Source: Comamonadaceae bacterium (GTDB lineage: Bacteria; Pseudomonadota; Gammaproteobacteria; Burkholderiales; Burkholderiaceae_C). Taken from it: 38,545 bases of DNA. Shown piece by piece: positions 30,824 to 37,786 of this stretch. Below the pieces are notes generated by a model. That model was not told where the DNA came from and made no database searches. It saw nothing but the letters and a program-made list of their open reading frames with translations. The stretch spans positions 1-38,545 of the forward strand of contig CANFYL010000006.1 of the NCBI GenBank assembly GCA_947451285.1, read 5' to 3'. Both the position numbers and the translations under genes were made by a program. Position 1 is the first letter of the stretch. Each line of letters opens with the position of its first letter.

Positions 30824-31801
30824 CTATGCGCCCATCATGGCTAAGAAATGGTCCGCGATGACGGGGCAATAAAGTTTGCCACGGTTGCTGGCCACGATGC
30901 GAAGAGCCTGCGCAGGCGAACTGGCTGTTTCTGTGTACTCACCACTGATCAACTCCTCATAGGACTCCACCAAACCCACAATACGCGCGCCCAGCGGAAT
31001 GCTGTCGCCACTAAGTTTGTCAGGGAAACCTGTGCCATCAAAGAATTCATGGTGCGATCGCACAATCGCGCCAACCGCCTCTAGCTCTTGAGAAATCGTT
31101 AAACTCATCTGCCCCATGGCGCAGTGCTTCTTGTACAACTTAACTTCTGACAGCGGCAACTCGAAATACTTGATGGCCAAGATGCGATCACTGAGTCCAA
31201 TTTTTCCTACGTCGTGCAACAAGCCTGCAATGAATACCTCTTGCTGTGCAATCTCATCCAAGCCAGCCTGATGCGCTAACTTCTTGGACAAATCTGCAAC
31301 ACGCCGAGAATGGGCCAGCAAGGCAGGCATGCGTAAATCCATCAGCCCAGAAAACGCTTTGATGGAAGACACATACGACGCACGCAAACGCGCATGCTTG
31401 GCCTTAGCCAACTCGCCCAACTCAATCGCAGACTTGATCACTCCCACCAATTCAGCATCAATCCAGGGCTTGGTTAAATAACGGTAAATTTCACCCTGGT
31501 TGATGGCGGCAACTGCGCTGTTGATATCAGCGGTCCCCGTCAACAACAAACGCATGGTGTCAGGCCATTTCTCTCTCACCTTTTCCAACAACTCCACGCC
31601 AGTCATTCCAGGCATTTGCAAGTCCGTGAGTAAAACGTGGAATTGATCTTTCTGCATCAGCTCCAAAGCTAAGGCCCCACTTTCGGCAGTGACCACTTGA
31701 AACCCCTCCAAGACCAACATACGTCGAAGAGCTGAAAGAATATTCGCTTCATCGTCAACACAAAGTACTGAAAACTGCGAAGGATCAAAGGCGATGGTCA
31801 T
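30824..31801 (-). CDS. Response regulator with HD-GYP-type output domain
   Basis: Two-component regulator of 325 residues in the RpfG style. The receiver domain has the acidic pair in LCVDDEAN, phosphoacceptor Asp60 in LLTDLQMPGMTG, Thr in LLTGTAD, and Lys in YLTKPW. The HD-GYP domain follows with LLHDVGKIG (His195-Asp196) and SHHEFFDGTGFPDKLSG. Here the GYP triplet reads GFP. Such domains hydrolyse cyclic-di-GMP or bind it. The Tyr-to-Phe change is conservative. It overlaps the histidine kinase gene by 4 bp and is the last gene of a PhnD-like protein, kinase and regulator operon, so it is the likely output of that sensor. Confidence 0.94.
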   Translation of the reverse strand: MTIAFDPSQFSVLCVDDEANILSALRRMLVLEGFQVVTAESGALALELMQKDQFHVLLTDLQMPGMTGVELLEKVREKWPDTMRLLLTGTADINSAVAAINQGEIYRYLTKPWIDAELVGVIKSAIELGELAKAKHARLRASYVSSIKAFSGLMDLRMPALLAHSRRVADLSKKLAHQAGLDEIAQQEVFIAGLLHDVGKIGLSDRILAIKYFELPLSEVKLYKKHCAMGQMSLTISQELEAVGAIVRSHHEFFDGTGFPDKLSGDSIPLGARIVGLVESYEELISGEYTETASSPAQALRIVASNRGKLYCPVIADHFLAMMGA

Positions 31802-33267
31802 GTCTGACTCCTAGAAAGAGCTGCCTCTAAGGCGTGTTGCTTGATTGGCAAAGTGATACGAAATGTTGTGCCTACACCCAATTTGCTCTGAACAGTCAGT
31901 GTGCCTGAGTGGCGGTGGATGATGCCCAACGATACCGACAACCCCAGACCAGTACCCAAACCTTGGGGTTTGGTGGTGAAAAATGGATCGAAGATTTTTG
32001 AGATCACTTCTTCGGAAATACCCGAACCATTGTCTTGCACCTCCAACCACACCTGTGTGGCCTCATGGCCGCTGCGAAGCGTGATCAAGCCACGCGTGTC
32101 AGGGTTCATGGCATGGGCTGCATTGACGATCAAATTCAGCAGAACTTGGTTGATTTGAGAGGGTACGCATTCCACGTGAGGAATTGGCGTGAGGGCCAGT
32201 TCAACATCGGCGCGACGTTTGACTTCACCGCTGACAATGTTGAGTGTCGATTGCAAACCCTGCAGCAAATCAGAGGGCACAAACTCAGTGATGGCATTGG
32301 AGCGAGAGAAATCTTTCAAATCTCTCACGATATTTTTGATCCGAGTCAAACCCTCTTGGGTCTCTGCCATCAAAGGTTGAAGGTCTGCGCGGATGGCTTC
32401 GTAGTTTAATTTTTTCGTCAACATCACCAAATCGTGCGCGTGGGATGCGTCCATCGACGTGTCTTGTGCAATCGCAGTGTCGAGAATTTTTTCGTACACC
32501 TTCAGGTATTTTTCAAGCGTTGACAAATTGGACGAAACATAACCCACTGGATTGTTGATCTCGTGGGCTACGCCTGCTGCCAGTTGACCTAAAGATGCCA
32601 GCTTTTCAGAGGCTAGCAAACGCTCGGAAGCATCATCGAGTTGCATGCCAATGAAGTGCTCGCGGCGCACCACTGAAAAGTAAAAGCGCCATAAAAAGAC
32701 CCCCAGGATCACGCTGCCAGAAAGCACTGACATGGCTGACAACCACAACGTTTGCTGGCGTAAGTGACTGACATCGTCCGTGTCCAGAGAATTACTGGTT
32801 TGAATACGCACCCACCCCAAATTCAGTCCCAGGGTAATTTTTTGCCACGTGGTGATGAAATGTTCGTCCCTGGATTGAATGATGTCGGATGCATCTTCTG
32901 TCGGTACGGTGACCTTGTCTGCTGCCATTTGATGGGTCGGAGTTTTTCCTTGTACCCGCGCCAAGTGCGTCATCACCCTGCCCTGCATGTCTGTCACCAT
33001 CACAGCGTAGACATCGTCGTTGGCCATGGTTTGGAACATACGGGCTTCAACCGCGGAATAGTCTTTCAACACCACTTGGTCAGCAACCGCCACCACCAAA
33101 CCCTGCGTGAGATTTTTGGCCATTTGAAACTTGCTCTCCCACAGCAAGCTTTTGGACTGGTAATAAGCCAACACACCCGTTCCAATTTGCAACAAGGCCA
33201 AAGCCAGCCCAATCATCAAGGCAGGACGAAGACTCTTCCATTGACGCTGGCCGATATGGATGTTCAT
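31798..33267 (-). CDS. Membrane sensor histidine kinase
   Basis: Kinase of 489 residues. A first membrane helix (about residues 17-36) and a second (about 174-198) flank a periplasmic region of roughly 135 residues with no domain I can name. The dimerisation box has [18 protein letters not shown], with His235 as the phosphorylation site. The ATP-binding part shows the N box (LIVNAAHAM), then [15 protein letters not shown] and [13 protein letters not shown]. It starts 1 bp after the PhnD-like gene stop and overlaps the HD-GYP response regulator by 4 bp, so the three genes form one module. The PhnD-like protein may deliver the signal to its periplasmic domain. Confidence 0.95.
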
Positions 33268-33268
33268 A

Positions 33269-34111
33269 TCAGGGGTTGCTCAAGACCAAGAACTTCTCGA
33301 GTTTCAAAGATTCCAAAACCTTGTAATGCTGGGCATAGCTCACCGCTTTGGGCTGATGAATGTTGATGCCGTCTAACAACTTTTGACCTTCTGCATCTTG
33401 CGTCAGGCTGAGCATGGCTTTCAAAAATTTGGCTCTGGCCTCTGGAGGTATCGAGGGATGCGTCACCACGGGATGTGGCGAATAAGCCTGGGTTTCATAC
33501 AACACCATCAGCTTGTCTTGAATCTCGGGCGGTTCGCTGCTGAGTGTGTTGTTCACGCCTCCACCGGCTTTCATGTCTGCGGCAATGACAGCACGATAGA
33601 CATTGCTGTGGTTTTTCACAAAGACAGGTTGAATGTCAACTTGCTTGCGTGCCAACTCAGCACGAATCAGCAAAGACGCAGCAAACGCATTAGGCGCTGG
33701 AAACGCCACCGATTTGCCTTTGAGCGCATCAATGCTGGCAATACCACTGTCTTTACGGATCACCAAAATCCCTGTCAACAACTCATGCCCGTCGGCCAAC
33801 AAAGGCGCGTATTTCTTCTTTTGGAAGGCCAACACGGCATGGTAAGGATTGACAAATGCAAACTGTGCATCCCCTTTCAAGAGGACTTGCTCGAAATCTG
33901 GAATATTGGCCGAGACACGCAAGTCAAAGCAAAGACCGGCTTCTTTGCCAACACGCTGCAACACCGGAGCCCAGGTGCTGTAGATCTTGGATGCCGTGTA
34001 CTGAGGCACCACATCAAAGGAAAAAGTTTTGGTGGCTTGGGTATCGCCTAAACATGCGGCCCGTGCAGCCAAAGACACGATCCCTAGAAAGAGCAGGAAT
34101 AGACATTTCAT
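33269..34111 (-). CDS. PhnD-like phosphate/phosphonate-type periplasmic binding protein
   Basis: Exported protein of 280 residues with a signal peptide ending near AARAAC. The mature protein has the PhnD/Phosphonate-bd-like pattern FDVVPQYTASKIYSTWAPVL, GDAQFAFVNPYHAVLAFQ, ILVIRKDSGIASIDALKGKSVAFP and NAFAASLLIRAEL. No ABC permease or ATPase accompanies it. Instead it is followed by a histidine kinase 1 bp away, which points to a ligand-sensing rather than an uptake role. The ligand could be a phosphonate, phosphite or an unrelated anion. Confidence 0.9.
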   Translation of the reverse strand: MKCLFLLFLGIVSLAARAACLGDTQATKTFSFDVVPQYTASKIYSTWAPVLQRVGKEAGLCFDLRVSANIPDFEQVLLKGDAQFAFVNPYHAVLAFQKKKYAPLLADGHELLTGILVIRKDSGIASIDALKGKSVAFPAPNAFAASLLIRAELARKQVDIQPVFVKNHSNVYRAVIAADMKAGGGVNNTLSSEPPEIQDKLMVLYETQAYSPHPVVTHPSIPPEARAKFLKAMLSLTQDAEGQKLLDGINIHQPKAVSYAQHYKVLESLKLEKFLVLSNP

Positions 34112-34253
34112 GGAGACCCTTCACACACGTGAGTTCAAAAAAGTTGAATGGGTGTGATTGTCCACGCAATGATCGCTTGACGTCATTGGCTTGTGCAAAG
34201 ACGCTTTATTAAACTTCAGTCCCTGCGCACATGCCCTTCGCAATAGGTGGGTG

Positions 34254-34279
34254 GTCGCCAAAGAATACCCGTTGGCGAC
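34254..34279. repeat. Perfect 8-bp inverted repeat upstream of the PhnD-like gene
   Basis: GTCGCCAA (34254-34261) and TTGGCGAC (34272-34279) form an inverted repeat with a 10-base spacer. It lies about 140 bp upstream of the sensor operon and 46 bp after the globin-like gene end. It could be an operator or an RNA hairpin; no T run follows. Confidence 0.4.
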
Positions 34280-34324
34280 ACATATTAAAGGTCTGGTTTT
34301 ACTTGCACGTGAATGTTGACTCAG

Positions 34325-35142
34325 CTAAACATCGCGAACTAAATTGATCAAACGCTCGTCCTTGTCCTGAGCCATTACTTCTTCGAATCGCCAAGAAAAC
34401 TCTTTCACTAAATTAAGCAGCATTCGGCTTGGTATTCCTGCCCCAGCGTAATCAATCGTGTGGCTGGCGTGAATGAAAACTCCATCTTCATCTTTTTTGA
34501 TCTCAAGCGGGAAGAACGGAAATCGCGTCATAGCCGCATCCAAGACTTTTTGAATCTCCACCAATTCAACACCCTGTCTGGCATAGCCCCTTCCGATCAG
34601 CGTCAATTTCTTGGTACTGGGTAAAAGATGGAGTGAGATAGGGTAGGCCACGCTGTTGCCAACGCTTATCGACAATTCTCCTGTGCCTTTGATAGAGCTT
34701 GTGAGACCTTTCTTGGCCAGTGTCTTTTGCAGAATATCCAGCGTAGCGAGTGCAGGATCTATCGTGGTTTTGACGACGTCGGTTGGGGCAGATCGGGTTT
34801 CCTCGGCGATTTCAATGATGTGATGAGACATGCGTGGAATTTCTTTCCAATGCACGCCCATGATCTTGAGCTGCGCTTGAAGCGTCTTCATCACGTCCTC
34901 AAACACATTGGGTTTGACACGAATGGCAACTGTTGCAATTTGCATCGGTAGATCGCGATACATATGCTCCGGCTTACGCATCACGAAGCTTCGAAAATTC
35001 ACCTGATCTTTAATAACGTTGTCCAAATTGACGCCAAAAAAATAGTGCTTGATTCCTCTTTCTTGACAGACTTTTTGATAAAAAAATCCAAATGCTTTTT
35101 CAGGTTCGGCAAACCACCATATTTTTTTAATAAGTCTTCCAT
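34325..35142 (-). CDS. Frame-disrupted protein with truncated-hemoglobin-like N-terminal domain
   Basis: Two overlapping minus-strand frames together give one protein-like sequence. From the ATG at 35140-35142 the first frame reads MEDLLKKYGGLPNLKKHLDFF and then ends at 34999. A -1 shift inside the T7 run (35080-35086 on the plus strand as A7) continues as YQKVCQERGIKHYFFGV, then QVNFRSF and LPMQIATVAI, to the stop at 34325. The reconstructed protein has 272 residues. Residues 4-115 match truncated hemoglobins: GG spaced ten residues before FY (B10 Tyr22), FFxGV, the E-helix Gln/Phe pattern and a final helical segment. The proximal F8 His is absent; Thr71 occupies its approximate place, so heme binding is doubtful. 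Residues about 130-272 form an alpha/beta domain of unknown family. Pseudogene, programmed frameshift and assembly error are all possible. Confidence 0.7.
35080..35086 (-). other. Homopolymer where the globin-like frame must shift
   Basis: On the minus strand the coding frame reads GAT TTT TTT ATC at this T7 run. A -1 slip on U UUU UUU gives GAT TTT TTT TAT CAA and restores the globin FY motif. A missing T in a T8 run would give the same result. Confidence 0.6.
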
Positions 35143-35176
35143 TGCGCTCAAACTTTCAAGATGATGCTTAGATAGA

Positions 35177-35197
35177 CCTCGTGAATAAGCCACGAGG
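35177..35197. promoter_or_regulatory. Inverted repeat upstream of the globin-like gene
   Basis: CCTCGTG (35177-35183) and CACGAGG (35191-35197) form a perfect 7-bp inverted repeat with a 7-base spacer. It lies about 35 bp upstream of the preferred ATG and overlaps the alternative GTG start at 35191-35193. It could be an operator or a translational hairpin. Confidence 0.4.
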
Positions 35198-35330
35198 GAA
35201 CGCGTGCTGTTTCAAAAACAATTGCTCATCTAAAGTTTATGAGGCGATGGCTGCTTTAGCGCACCCTGTCACGCTCCTTAACAAATCCGTAATGTTGAAT
35301 CGTGTTTTTGAGCACTAAATCATCACCTGA

Positions 35331-36017
35331 CTAAGTGCGACTGGCCGCCCGCGCCTGCTGCACTTGGTGCAAGGTGATGTGGCGCACCTCGGTCTGGCTC
35401 GATTGAATATGGGCACGCAACAAATGCACGGCCTCGTCTTGGCGGCGGTCCAACACGGCTTGCAAGATCTGGCCATGTTCGGCGTAAGTGATGTCAATGC
35501 GGTTTTGGTAGGTGAAGTCGAGCCGGCGCACGATACGGATGCGCTCGGTCACCGCTTGGTGCACACGCACCATCTCCACATTGCCCGTAGCTGCCACCAA
35601 CTGGTGGTGAAACGCTTCGTCCCATTCGGCCACTTGGTGCTGGTCGCTGCTGCGGGCCTGTAGCGGCACGAGCCAGATACTCGCTAAGCTGTGCAACACG
35701 CTGCGGTCGGTGCGTACATCGTCATGGCACAGGCGTTGCACCGCCTCGGCTTCGAGCACACGGCGCAGGTCGTAGAGCTGATCGAACTTGTCAAAGTCAA
35801 ACGGGCGCACCTGCCAGCCACTGCGAAACAGCACATCCACATAGCCTTCTTGCCGCAGCCTGAACAGCGCTTGGCGCACCGGCGTGCGTGACACGCTCAA
35901 GCGCTCGCTGATTTCAGTTTCGGTGATGCGGTCACCCGGCACCAGGCGAAAGTCGGCGATGTCACGCTTGAGCTGTTGGTACACCTCATCGGCACGCGAC
36001 GGGTGCGACAGCGTCAT
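35331..36017 (-). CDS. GntR family (FadR subfamily, FCD domain) transcriptional regulator
   Basis: Regulator of 228 residues. The winged helix-turn-helix is [36 protein letters not shown]. The C-terminal FCD helical ligand-binding domain contains [15 protein letters not shown] and the metal-ligand-like pattern [19 protein letters not shown], with His residues in [14 protein letters not shown] and LLRAHI. It overlaps the AtzH-like gene by 4 bp at the end of the operon, so it probably regulates the whole set according to a carboxylate ligand such as the substrate or a product. Confidence 0.94.
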
Positions 36018-36388
36018 GCCAGCAAGCTCACATGTGCGGCCACCACACGCCAGCCCTCAGGTGTGCGCATCCAGGTTTGGCTTTGTCGGCCTGTGCGTGG
36101 GTTGCCCGTTCGTGCGAACTCGGTGTTGGCGGTGGCAAAGTCGCGCCCGTAGGTGGTGATCACCGTGTTCATGCAGGTGCGTGCCAAGCCTTGCGAGGGC
36201 CGGTTGGCGCGGAAGTCTTGGATGGCTTGGTAGCCATACAGGTTTTCGGTGGCGCCATAGCGCAGGGTGTGCGGGCTGTTCCAAAACAGCTCGTCAAGCA
36301 CCGCCACGTCGTTGCTGACCAGGGCTTGTTCGTAACGGTCAAAGGCGGCTTGCATCTCGGCCAGCACCTCAGGCAAATTGATGTCCAT
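36014..36388 (-). CDS. AtzH-like/HpxZ-like small protein (DUF3225, SnoaL-type fold)
   Basis: Protein of 124 residues in the AtzH/HpxZ group, recognised from the N-terminal helix [22 protein letters not shown], the segment [25 protein letters not shown] and the strand [17 protein letters not shown]. The fold is the cone-shaped NTF2/SnoaL type. Family members sit next to AtzE- or oxalurate-type amidases, but their catalytic or structural role is not settled. It starts directly after the amidase stop and overlaps the regulator by 4 bp. Confidence 0.9.
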
Positions 36389-37786
36389 TCAAAGCTCCAC
36401 AGGTTTGACATGGGCCACGCCCGCCGACTCCAGCGCCAGCGCCACCCGAAAGGCCAAGTCTTCGCGCCAGGGCGCGGCAATGATTTGCACGCCCAAGGGC
36501 AAGCCCTCGGTGCACGTTGGCCACAGCGGTGCAGCCACCACCGGGCAACCGGCAAACGAGATGGGTTGGGTCAACAGCCCCATGGCCGCGCGTGCAGGCA
36601 AGGTCTGGCCCTGAATGTCGAGCCACTCGGTGCCAATCGGCGTGGCGCTCACGGGTGTGGCGGGTGCCAGCAGCACATCCCAGTGTTCAAACAAGGCATT
36701 CACCTGGTCACGGTAGAGGCGGCGAAAGCGCTGGGCTTTGACGTACCAGTCGGCGGGTTGCAGGGCACCGGCCCAAAAACGGTCCACCGACAAAGGCTCG
36801 AAGTCGTCGCTGCGGGTGCGCAACTCATTCAAATGCAAGCTGCCGCCTTCGCTGGCGGTGATGATGAAAGCTGCCGCACGCGCCAGCGCCGCACTGGGCC
36901 AGCTCACCTGCGCCGTGGCCCCCAAGCACTGGGCCGCCGACTGCACCGCCTCGCGTGCCGGGGCACTGGCGTGGTCATGAAAGTAACCGTCCAGCACACC
37001 CACGCGCAACCCTTGCAGCCCATGGGCCAAGCTGCCCATGACGGGCTCCACGCGGCGGGCGTGACAGCCGGGGTCGAGCGCATCGGGGACTTGCAGCGCG
37101 TCGTACATCTGGGACAAGCCGGTGAGTGAATTGGCAAAGCCACCCAGGTGGTCAATGCTGTGCACAAACGGGTAACTGCCCCGGCGCGACAAGCGGCCAA
37201 ACGTGGGCTTGATGCCCCACACGCCGCACAGCGATGCGGGCACGCGGATGGAGCCATTGGTGTCTGAGCCCAAGCTCAAGGGCACTTGCCCCGCAGCCAC
37301 TGCCGCACCCGAGCCGCCTGATGACCCGCCCGCAATGCGCGACAGGTCATGCGGGTTGTGGCACGGGCCGTAGTGGGTGTTCTCGGTGGTGAAGCCGTAG
37401 GCAAACTCGTCCATGTTGAGCGCGCCCACCAGCACCGCACCGGCGGCGTCCATCTGCTGCACCAGCAGCGCATCGGCCTGTGCCGGTGCATGACCCTGGT
37501 TAACGATAGAGCCCGCCAGCGTGACCTCGCCTTGCACATCGAACAAGTTTTTCACGGCATAGGGCACACCGGCCAAGGGAGGCAGCACCTCGCCACGGGC
37601 GCGCTGGGCATCCACCGCCTGCGCTTTGGCGCGCGCGCGGTCATGGCAATGGCTGGTGAACGCATTCACCTGCGGGTCGGTAGCCGCAATGCGTTCTTGG
37701 TGCGCATCCAACACCTCGCAGGCGCTGAACTGGCCGCTGGCAATGCCGCGCGCCAAGTCGGGGGCAGACAAGGTGGTGAGGGTCAT
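36389..37786 (-). CDS. AtzE-like amidase-signature hydrolase
   Basis: Amidase of 465 residues from the ATG at 37784-37786, which overlaps the AtzG-like gene by 4 bp; a TTG seven codons upstream is not needed. The amidase-signature triad is visible: Lys79 in VPYAVKNLFD, cis-Ser at about residue 155 in GGSSGGSG, and nucleophile Ser179 in DTNGSIRVP. AtzE with its small partner AtzG hydrolyses 1-carboxybiuret in cyanuric acid breakdown. The neighbours here lack atzD and atzF, so the substrate may be another ureide- or amide-type compound. The operon also carries AtzH and GntR genes and an ABC importer ATPase. Confidence 0.93.
   Translation of the reverse strand: MTLTTLSAPDLARGIASGQFSACEVLDAHQERIAATDPQVNAFTSHCHDRARAKAQAVDAQRARGEVLPPLAGVPYAVKNLFDVQGEVTLAGSIVNQGHAPAQADALLVQQMDAAGAVLVGALNMDEFAYGFTTENTHYGPCHNPHDLSRIAGGSSGGSGAAVAAGQVPLSLGSDTNGSIRVPASLCGVWGIKPTFGRLSRRGSYPFVHSIDHLGGFANSLTGLSQMYDALQVPDALDPGCHARRVEPVMGSLAHGLQGLRVGVLDGYFHDHASAPAREAVQSAAQCLGATAQVSWPSAALARAAAFIITASEGGSLHLNELRTRSDDFEPLSVDRFWAGALQPADWYVKAQRFRRLYRDQVNALFEHWDVLLAPATPVSATPIGTEWLDIQGQTLPARAAMGLLTQPISFAGCPVVAAPLWPTCTEGLPLGVQIIAAPWREDLAFRVALALESAGVAHVKPVEL

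Follow-up and report, generated by a model that had tools for sequence, protein, structure and literature searches.

A globin-like/YbjN-like fusion gene divided between two reading frames at a T7 run in a draft genome of a freshwater Comamonadaceae bacterium

Described counterparts and the domains of the gene

The closest described counterparts of the gene analyzed here are the group 1 truncated hemoglobins (PF01152; for instance 3aq5 and the cyanoglobin 1mwb) and the YbjN family, represented by E. coli YbjN (6vu7) and Erwinia AmyR (5fr7 and 5frk). A third comparison, by analogy only, is with the stressosome protein RsbR, which carries a STAS domain and whose globin is of another class. The stressosome literature gives RsbR an N-terminal domain with a heme-less globin fold that serves as the sensor head of a signalling protein, so that non-heme globin sensors are known from stressosomes; unlike RsbR, the family reported here has a YbjN-like partner domain and a globin of the group 1 truncated kind. 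As to YbjN proteins, the conclusion of the AmyR paper is that they work through protein-protein contact, with no enzyme activity (PMC5398634). Each half of the architecture is of a known kind, and it is their fusion that is apparently undescribed, a provisional statement based on one open-access literature collection: the searched literature yielded no paper that brought together truncated hemoglobin and YbjN, and none that brought together globin, transposase and YbjN in a fusion protein.

The window, i.e., the whole stretch of DNA that was analyzed, comprises 38,545 bases from a draft metagenome-assembled genome (MAG) of a freshwater bacterium (1.96 Mb in 141 contigs, 62% complete). The gene occupies 818 bases of the minus strand (34325-35142), with an ATG at 35142 and a stop codon at 34327-34325, and it is spread over two frames. 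Read from the ATG without a shift, the upstream frame reaches a stop at 34999 after 47 residues. The downstream frame is offset by one base; it stays open between about 35155 and its stop at 34325, and its first ATG, GTG or TTG start is the TTG at 35026. The frame changes, with a net one-base offset, at a run of seven T (35080-35086, minus strand) that sits in the zero-frame register of a U UUU UUU slippery heptamer. When both frames are joined at this run, a protein of 272 residues is obtained. The upstream-frame part (35080-35142, including T7) contributes the start and helices A and B of a globin-like domain and aligns to residues 1-21 of the relatives; the downstream frame provides the remainder of this domain, from B10 to a conserved EETR linker (34793-35080, the lower limit being approximate), and then a C-terminal domain (34325-34792, boundary approximate).

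The joined protein was matched in 44 of 101 genomes, its own counted, and its four best non-self hits (G010, G001, G003 and G039) aligned with it unbroken and in a single frame over residues 1-271, at 44-52% identity. Since the relatives read both halves in one frame, these are genuine parts of one gene, far beyond chance, and the gene is disrupted relative to its intact orthologs. The first-pass annotation had placed a frame break at T7 and proposed that joining the frames there restores Tyr22 at position B10, directly after FF; the unbroken alignment to whole relatives bore out both points. Viral contigs gave no match, and scans of the whole window for Rfam families and tRNAs found nothing.

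A truncated-hemoglobin-like domain without the proximal F8 His had also been proposed from the sequence, and both features were upheld. Searched directly against Pfam and NCBIfam, the joined protein showed no match at E ≤ 1, and the upstream piece alone gave weak matches to two irrelevant Pfam families. A profile of the family (A1), in contrast, retrieved solved group 1 truncated hemoglobins from the PDB chains with hmmsearch (3aq5, E 1e-10, positions 2-111), and PF01152 matched 6 of 23 family members at E ≤ 1, with a best value of 0.0029; one such match, seen in detail, scored 16.8 bits against a cut-off of 21. In agreement, the YGG and FF.GV motifs and the later helices follow in the order found in group 1 truncated hemoglobins, and the window copy has FY at B10. 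The family differs from these proteins in its extra C-terminal domain and in B10, where Tyr was found in only 26 of 46 rows (His in 13, Phe in 4, Arg in 2 and Ala in 1). It also differs in the replacement of the F8 His: this residue was present in 0 of 48 placeable family rows, one row being gapped, versus 10 of 10 ordinary truncated globin rows. Most family rows have Pro at F8 and the window has Thr. As the His is absent throughout, its loss is a family trait. In the AlphaFold2 model of a whole, intact relative (L071), the globin part had low confidence, and a model of the globin alone reached a pLDDT of 46; the globin fold is therefore assigned on sequence profiles. By these profiles, the N-terminal domain derives from a group 1 truncated globin and lacks the F8 His that anchors heme; it is probably heme-free, a natural reading of the loss of this residue, which is not by itself proof of heme loss.

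Ordinary truncated hemoglobins of the same genus (L055, L057-L061, L064 and L065) retain the F8 His and carry two N-terminal CxxC pairs that look zinc-ribbon-like by eye. The profile of ordinary globins was built from these eight rows plus L056 and L069, from outside the genus, and in a profile-profile comparison it matched the family with an E value of 3.6e-17 over 114 columns. Unlike the family, these proteins have both the F8 His and the CxxC pairs and no YbjN-like domain. When the MAG of the window was searched by profile, no ordinary truncated hemoglobin was found, the globin-YbjN gene being the only match.

The separate C-terminal domain of the first-pass annotation stood up as well and can now be described as YbjN-like, by the predicted fold of the relative L071. 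The model of this protein had pLDDT values of 71-90 over most of the domain, and in a Foldseek search all 7 matches at E ≤ 0.001 were to E. coli YbjN (6vu7) or Erwinia AmyR (5fr7 and 5frk), with E values from 6e-5 to 4e-4. Type III secretion chaperones matched more weakly, and this likeness carries no implication of secretion here. At the level of sequence, a match to PF10722 was found in 1 of 23 members at E ≤ 1 (E 0.013, 16.2 bits versus a cut-off of 22). Thus, the domain resembles the YbjN family in predicted fold and differs from it in having no clear sequence match and in being fused behind a globin-like domain.

The frame break at the T7 run

The break is private to the gene in the window. 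The fetched loci, a subset of all matches, gave 59 distinct rows; 46 family rows with the N-terminus were compared, leaving aside 10 ordinary globins, the contig-end fragments L027 and L045, and L063, in which the start is missing. The comparison of T7 with T8 among relatives, suggested by the first-pass annotation, gave a uniform answer: all 46 were whole, with an in-frame ATG ahead of B10, and none had a T7 within the 18 bases around B10, where the longest T run was 6. In several of the closest relatives, a C interrupts the T run at the same place. The joined frame of the window contained no further stop, its other ~250 codons being without decay, and its branch in the tree of the joined protein (0.38) did not exceed in length the branches of the neighbouring lone rows (0.5-0.8). 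This ordinary branch length and the lack of any other stop indicate that the shift is either recent or an artefact.

We consider it somewhat more probable than not (about 0.55) that the gene was broken by a genuine mutation of recent date, seen as the private net one-base shift at T7, and that the locus is starting to decay. What suggests a real mutation over an assembly error, although not decisively, is that the small gene next to it in related loci is at most a remnant here (see below). The full-length protein is probably not made in the species of the window, although translation from an internal start, for instance TTG 35026, may give a truncated product.

The strongest competing explanation, clearly less probable and still to be taken seriously, is that the length of the T run in the contig is wrong and that the frame is intact in the organism. 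The source is a fragmented and incomplete draft MAG, the tested relatives are whole, and the rest of the frame shows no damage and a normal rate of evolution; judged on the gene's own sequence, in the single genome of the species, a one-base assembly error fits equally well. Against this stand the possible remnant of the neighbour gene, which fits real decay better, and the behavior of other homopolymers, whose errors do not look systematic in this MAG. In 438,545 bases (20 stretches plus the window), 101 homopolymer runs of at least 7 were counted. Outside the window, 22 of them were listed as candidate breaks, and the 7 that were translated revealed no broken gene by eye; they corresponded to adjacent genes, antisense-looking frames, or an intact frame of 1300 residues. 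The remaining 15 had fewer than 60 codons upstream. Inside the window there were 6 candidate runs, three of them within the globin-YbjN gene. A systematic homopolymer error was therefore dropped, as unsupported by the 7 translated candidates. Between the two alternatives of the first-pass annotation, a T8-to-T7 error or decay, we lean to a real private mutation, with the possible neighbour remnant as the basis.

It is improbable that the downstream frame is used by itself, with an internal start such as TTG 35026 and a product made up of the latter half of the globin plus the complete YbjN-like domain, a reading that overlaps with that of a real mutation. From this TTG the frame is open for 233 codons, and it overlaps the end of the upstream frame, which makes reinitiation possible; however, none of the 46 tested relatives is arranged in this way, all having the ATG upstream of B10, and half a globin domain would be unlikely to fold.

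The least probable explanation is a working -1 ribosomal frameshift or transcriptional slippage at T7 that would yield low levels of the full-length protein, although the run lies in the exact register of the heptamer and joining the frames recreates the conserved FY motif. According to Baranov et al. (PMC1088944), a large fraction of 108 genomes shows evident selection against slippage at nine-base runs, slippage may occur at shorter runs in some bacteria, and 'pseudo pseudogenes' can be rescued through slippage; the latter two points would speak for such a mechanism. The run of seven is below the length of about nine A or T taken as the criterion for transcriptional slippage, and 400 kb of the MAG contain the same heptamer register within 5 long open frames, some of them perhaps antisense. 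The RNA downstream of T7 was not more stable than its shuffles (z of 0.17, -0.85 and -1.25 for 80, 60 and 50 bases; pseudoknots fall outside this test). Programmed frameshifting, offered by the first-pass annotation as a fitting mechanism, was discarded as the leading reading, since neither the site nor the split is conserved in the 46 relatives and the RNA structure is ordinary.

Neighbouring genes and a possible remnant

Immediately behind the globin-YbjN gene, 7 of 20 relatives' loci encode a small, secreted and Cys-rich protein, and these 7 are the rows that share a group with the window in the tree, at an open node with a support of 81/88. In the window, the corresponding place holds a stretch (34318-34220, minus strand) that resembles only the middle of this protein. 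It was searched for with small-protein queries over 33800-36400, with a profile over the window, and on a 213-base stretch, and the bit score changed with the size of the searched region (0.6, 4.8 and 9.3, respectively). The 9.3 bits obtained on the 213-base stretch were reached by 2 of 2000 dinucleotide shuffles. The match ranks first in the whole window but with an E value of 0.03, and among 200 shuffles of the 2.6 kb around it, 1 gave a higher score. These profile matches suggest that the small neighbour gene is at most a weak remnant in the window. In L036-L039, another small protein with Cys residues, different from the first, is encoded immediately upstream of the globin-YbjN gene (~110 residues in L039).

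On the other side of the gene, 7 of the 20 loci carry an OmpR-type regulator and a kinase, and an eighth has the kinase alone at a contig end. The window has a GntR/FCD-family regulator on that side (35331-36017, minus strand), and no remnant of the two-component genes was found in the window at E 1e-5. They are also missing from 12 of the 20 loci, including those of the whole close relatives L035 and L071, so their absence in the window says little. The genome of the window gave 11 kinase matches to the adjacent kinase, at 25-38% identity, none close enough to be taken as its orthologue in a MAG that is 62% complete.

Downstream of the gene, the window encodes a phosphonate-binding-like protein, a histidine kinase and an HD-domain response regulator (30824-34111, minus strand). 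The relative G001 (L033) has homologues of the three near its globin-YbjN gene, arranged differently. There, the homologue of the histidine kinase (31798-33267 in the window) matches in two pieces in different frames (L033:4079-5421), either a break or an assembly fault.

Distribution of the family and its possible role

The family profile matched 55 of 84 genomes of the genus, or 53 of 84 after removal of G008 and G043, which have the globin part only, in short frames, and were taken as ordinary globins; G043 corresponds to L065 and has the F8 His. Some of the 53 matches are fragments at contig ends. No full-length fusion was found outside the genus in 299 genomes of the taxonomic family, where the sole non-genus match was a lone globin. 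Among 399 genomes of the order and 398 of the phylum there were 7 and 6 matches, respectively, besides the window, with the globin part only, one of them (L127) in a frame of 271 residues. In the genomes searched, the globin-YbjN fusion is thus restricted to the genus, apart from the three named relatives L071, L074 and L076.

Two variants of the architecture were observed. In five loci of the same genus (L048:2880-4532, minus strand; L049:2138-3961, plus; L050:2434-4155, minus; L051:1676-3325, plus; and L052:3341-5131, minus), the globin-YbjN unit lies behind a long N-terminal part, the frames measuring 550-608 residues from stop to stop. Scans of two of them, L048 and L049, revealed the transposase domain PF05598 (DUF772; E 5e-9 and 1e-8), and the five formed one clade with a support of 100/100, subject to a long-branch warning. 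By this domain match, the N-terminal part is possibly a domesticated transposase part. In the second variant (L053:2978-4102 and L054:2831-3928, both on the minus strand; 375 and 366 residues), about 100 extra residues follow the YbjN-like domain, and B10 is Arg and F8 is Ser.

The whole relatives would most likely be non-enzymatic signalling or adaptor proteins, in which the globin fold may sense or bind something other than a heme ligand and the YbjN-like domain may contact a partner. From the gene order, the adjacent OmpR-type regulator and kinase, where present, would be the likely partner system. The loss of the F8 His and the fusion to a YbjN-like domain sustain the probable non-heme globin of the first-pass annotation, while the sensor-like role given to it there stays conjectural. 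As a tentative picture, to which we give less weight than to the mutation itself, a truncated globin would have become, in a freshwater genus, a signalling domain that works without heme; it would have been joined to a YbjN-like protein-contact domain, multiplied into several paralogs and coupled to an OmpR-type two-component system encoded next to it. In one branch, it would lie behind a transposase-derived, possibly DNA-binding part, and the module would be in the course of being lost from the species of the window.

The frame break itself is ordinary and matters little; the interest lies in the apparently unreported globin-YbjN family to which the gene belongs. With its dozens of sequences, this family would form a natural series of truncated globins that have been retained in spite of losing the heme anchor, perhaps as a sensor or scaffold, in parallel to the non-heme globin domains of the stressosome RsbR proteins. 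Within the same genus, globins with a retained F8 His offer built-in controls for such a series, and the family gives YbjN-like domains a concrete genomic partner.
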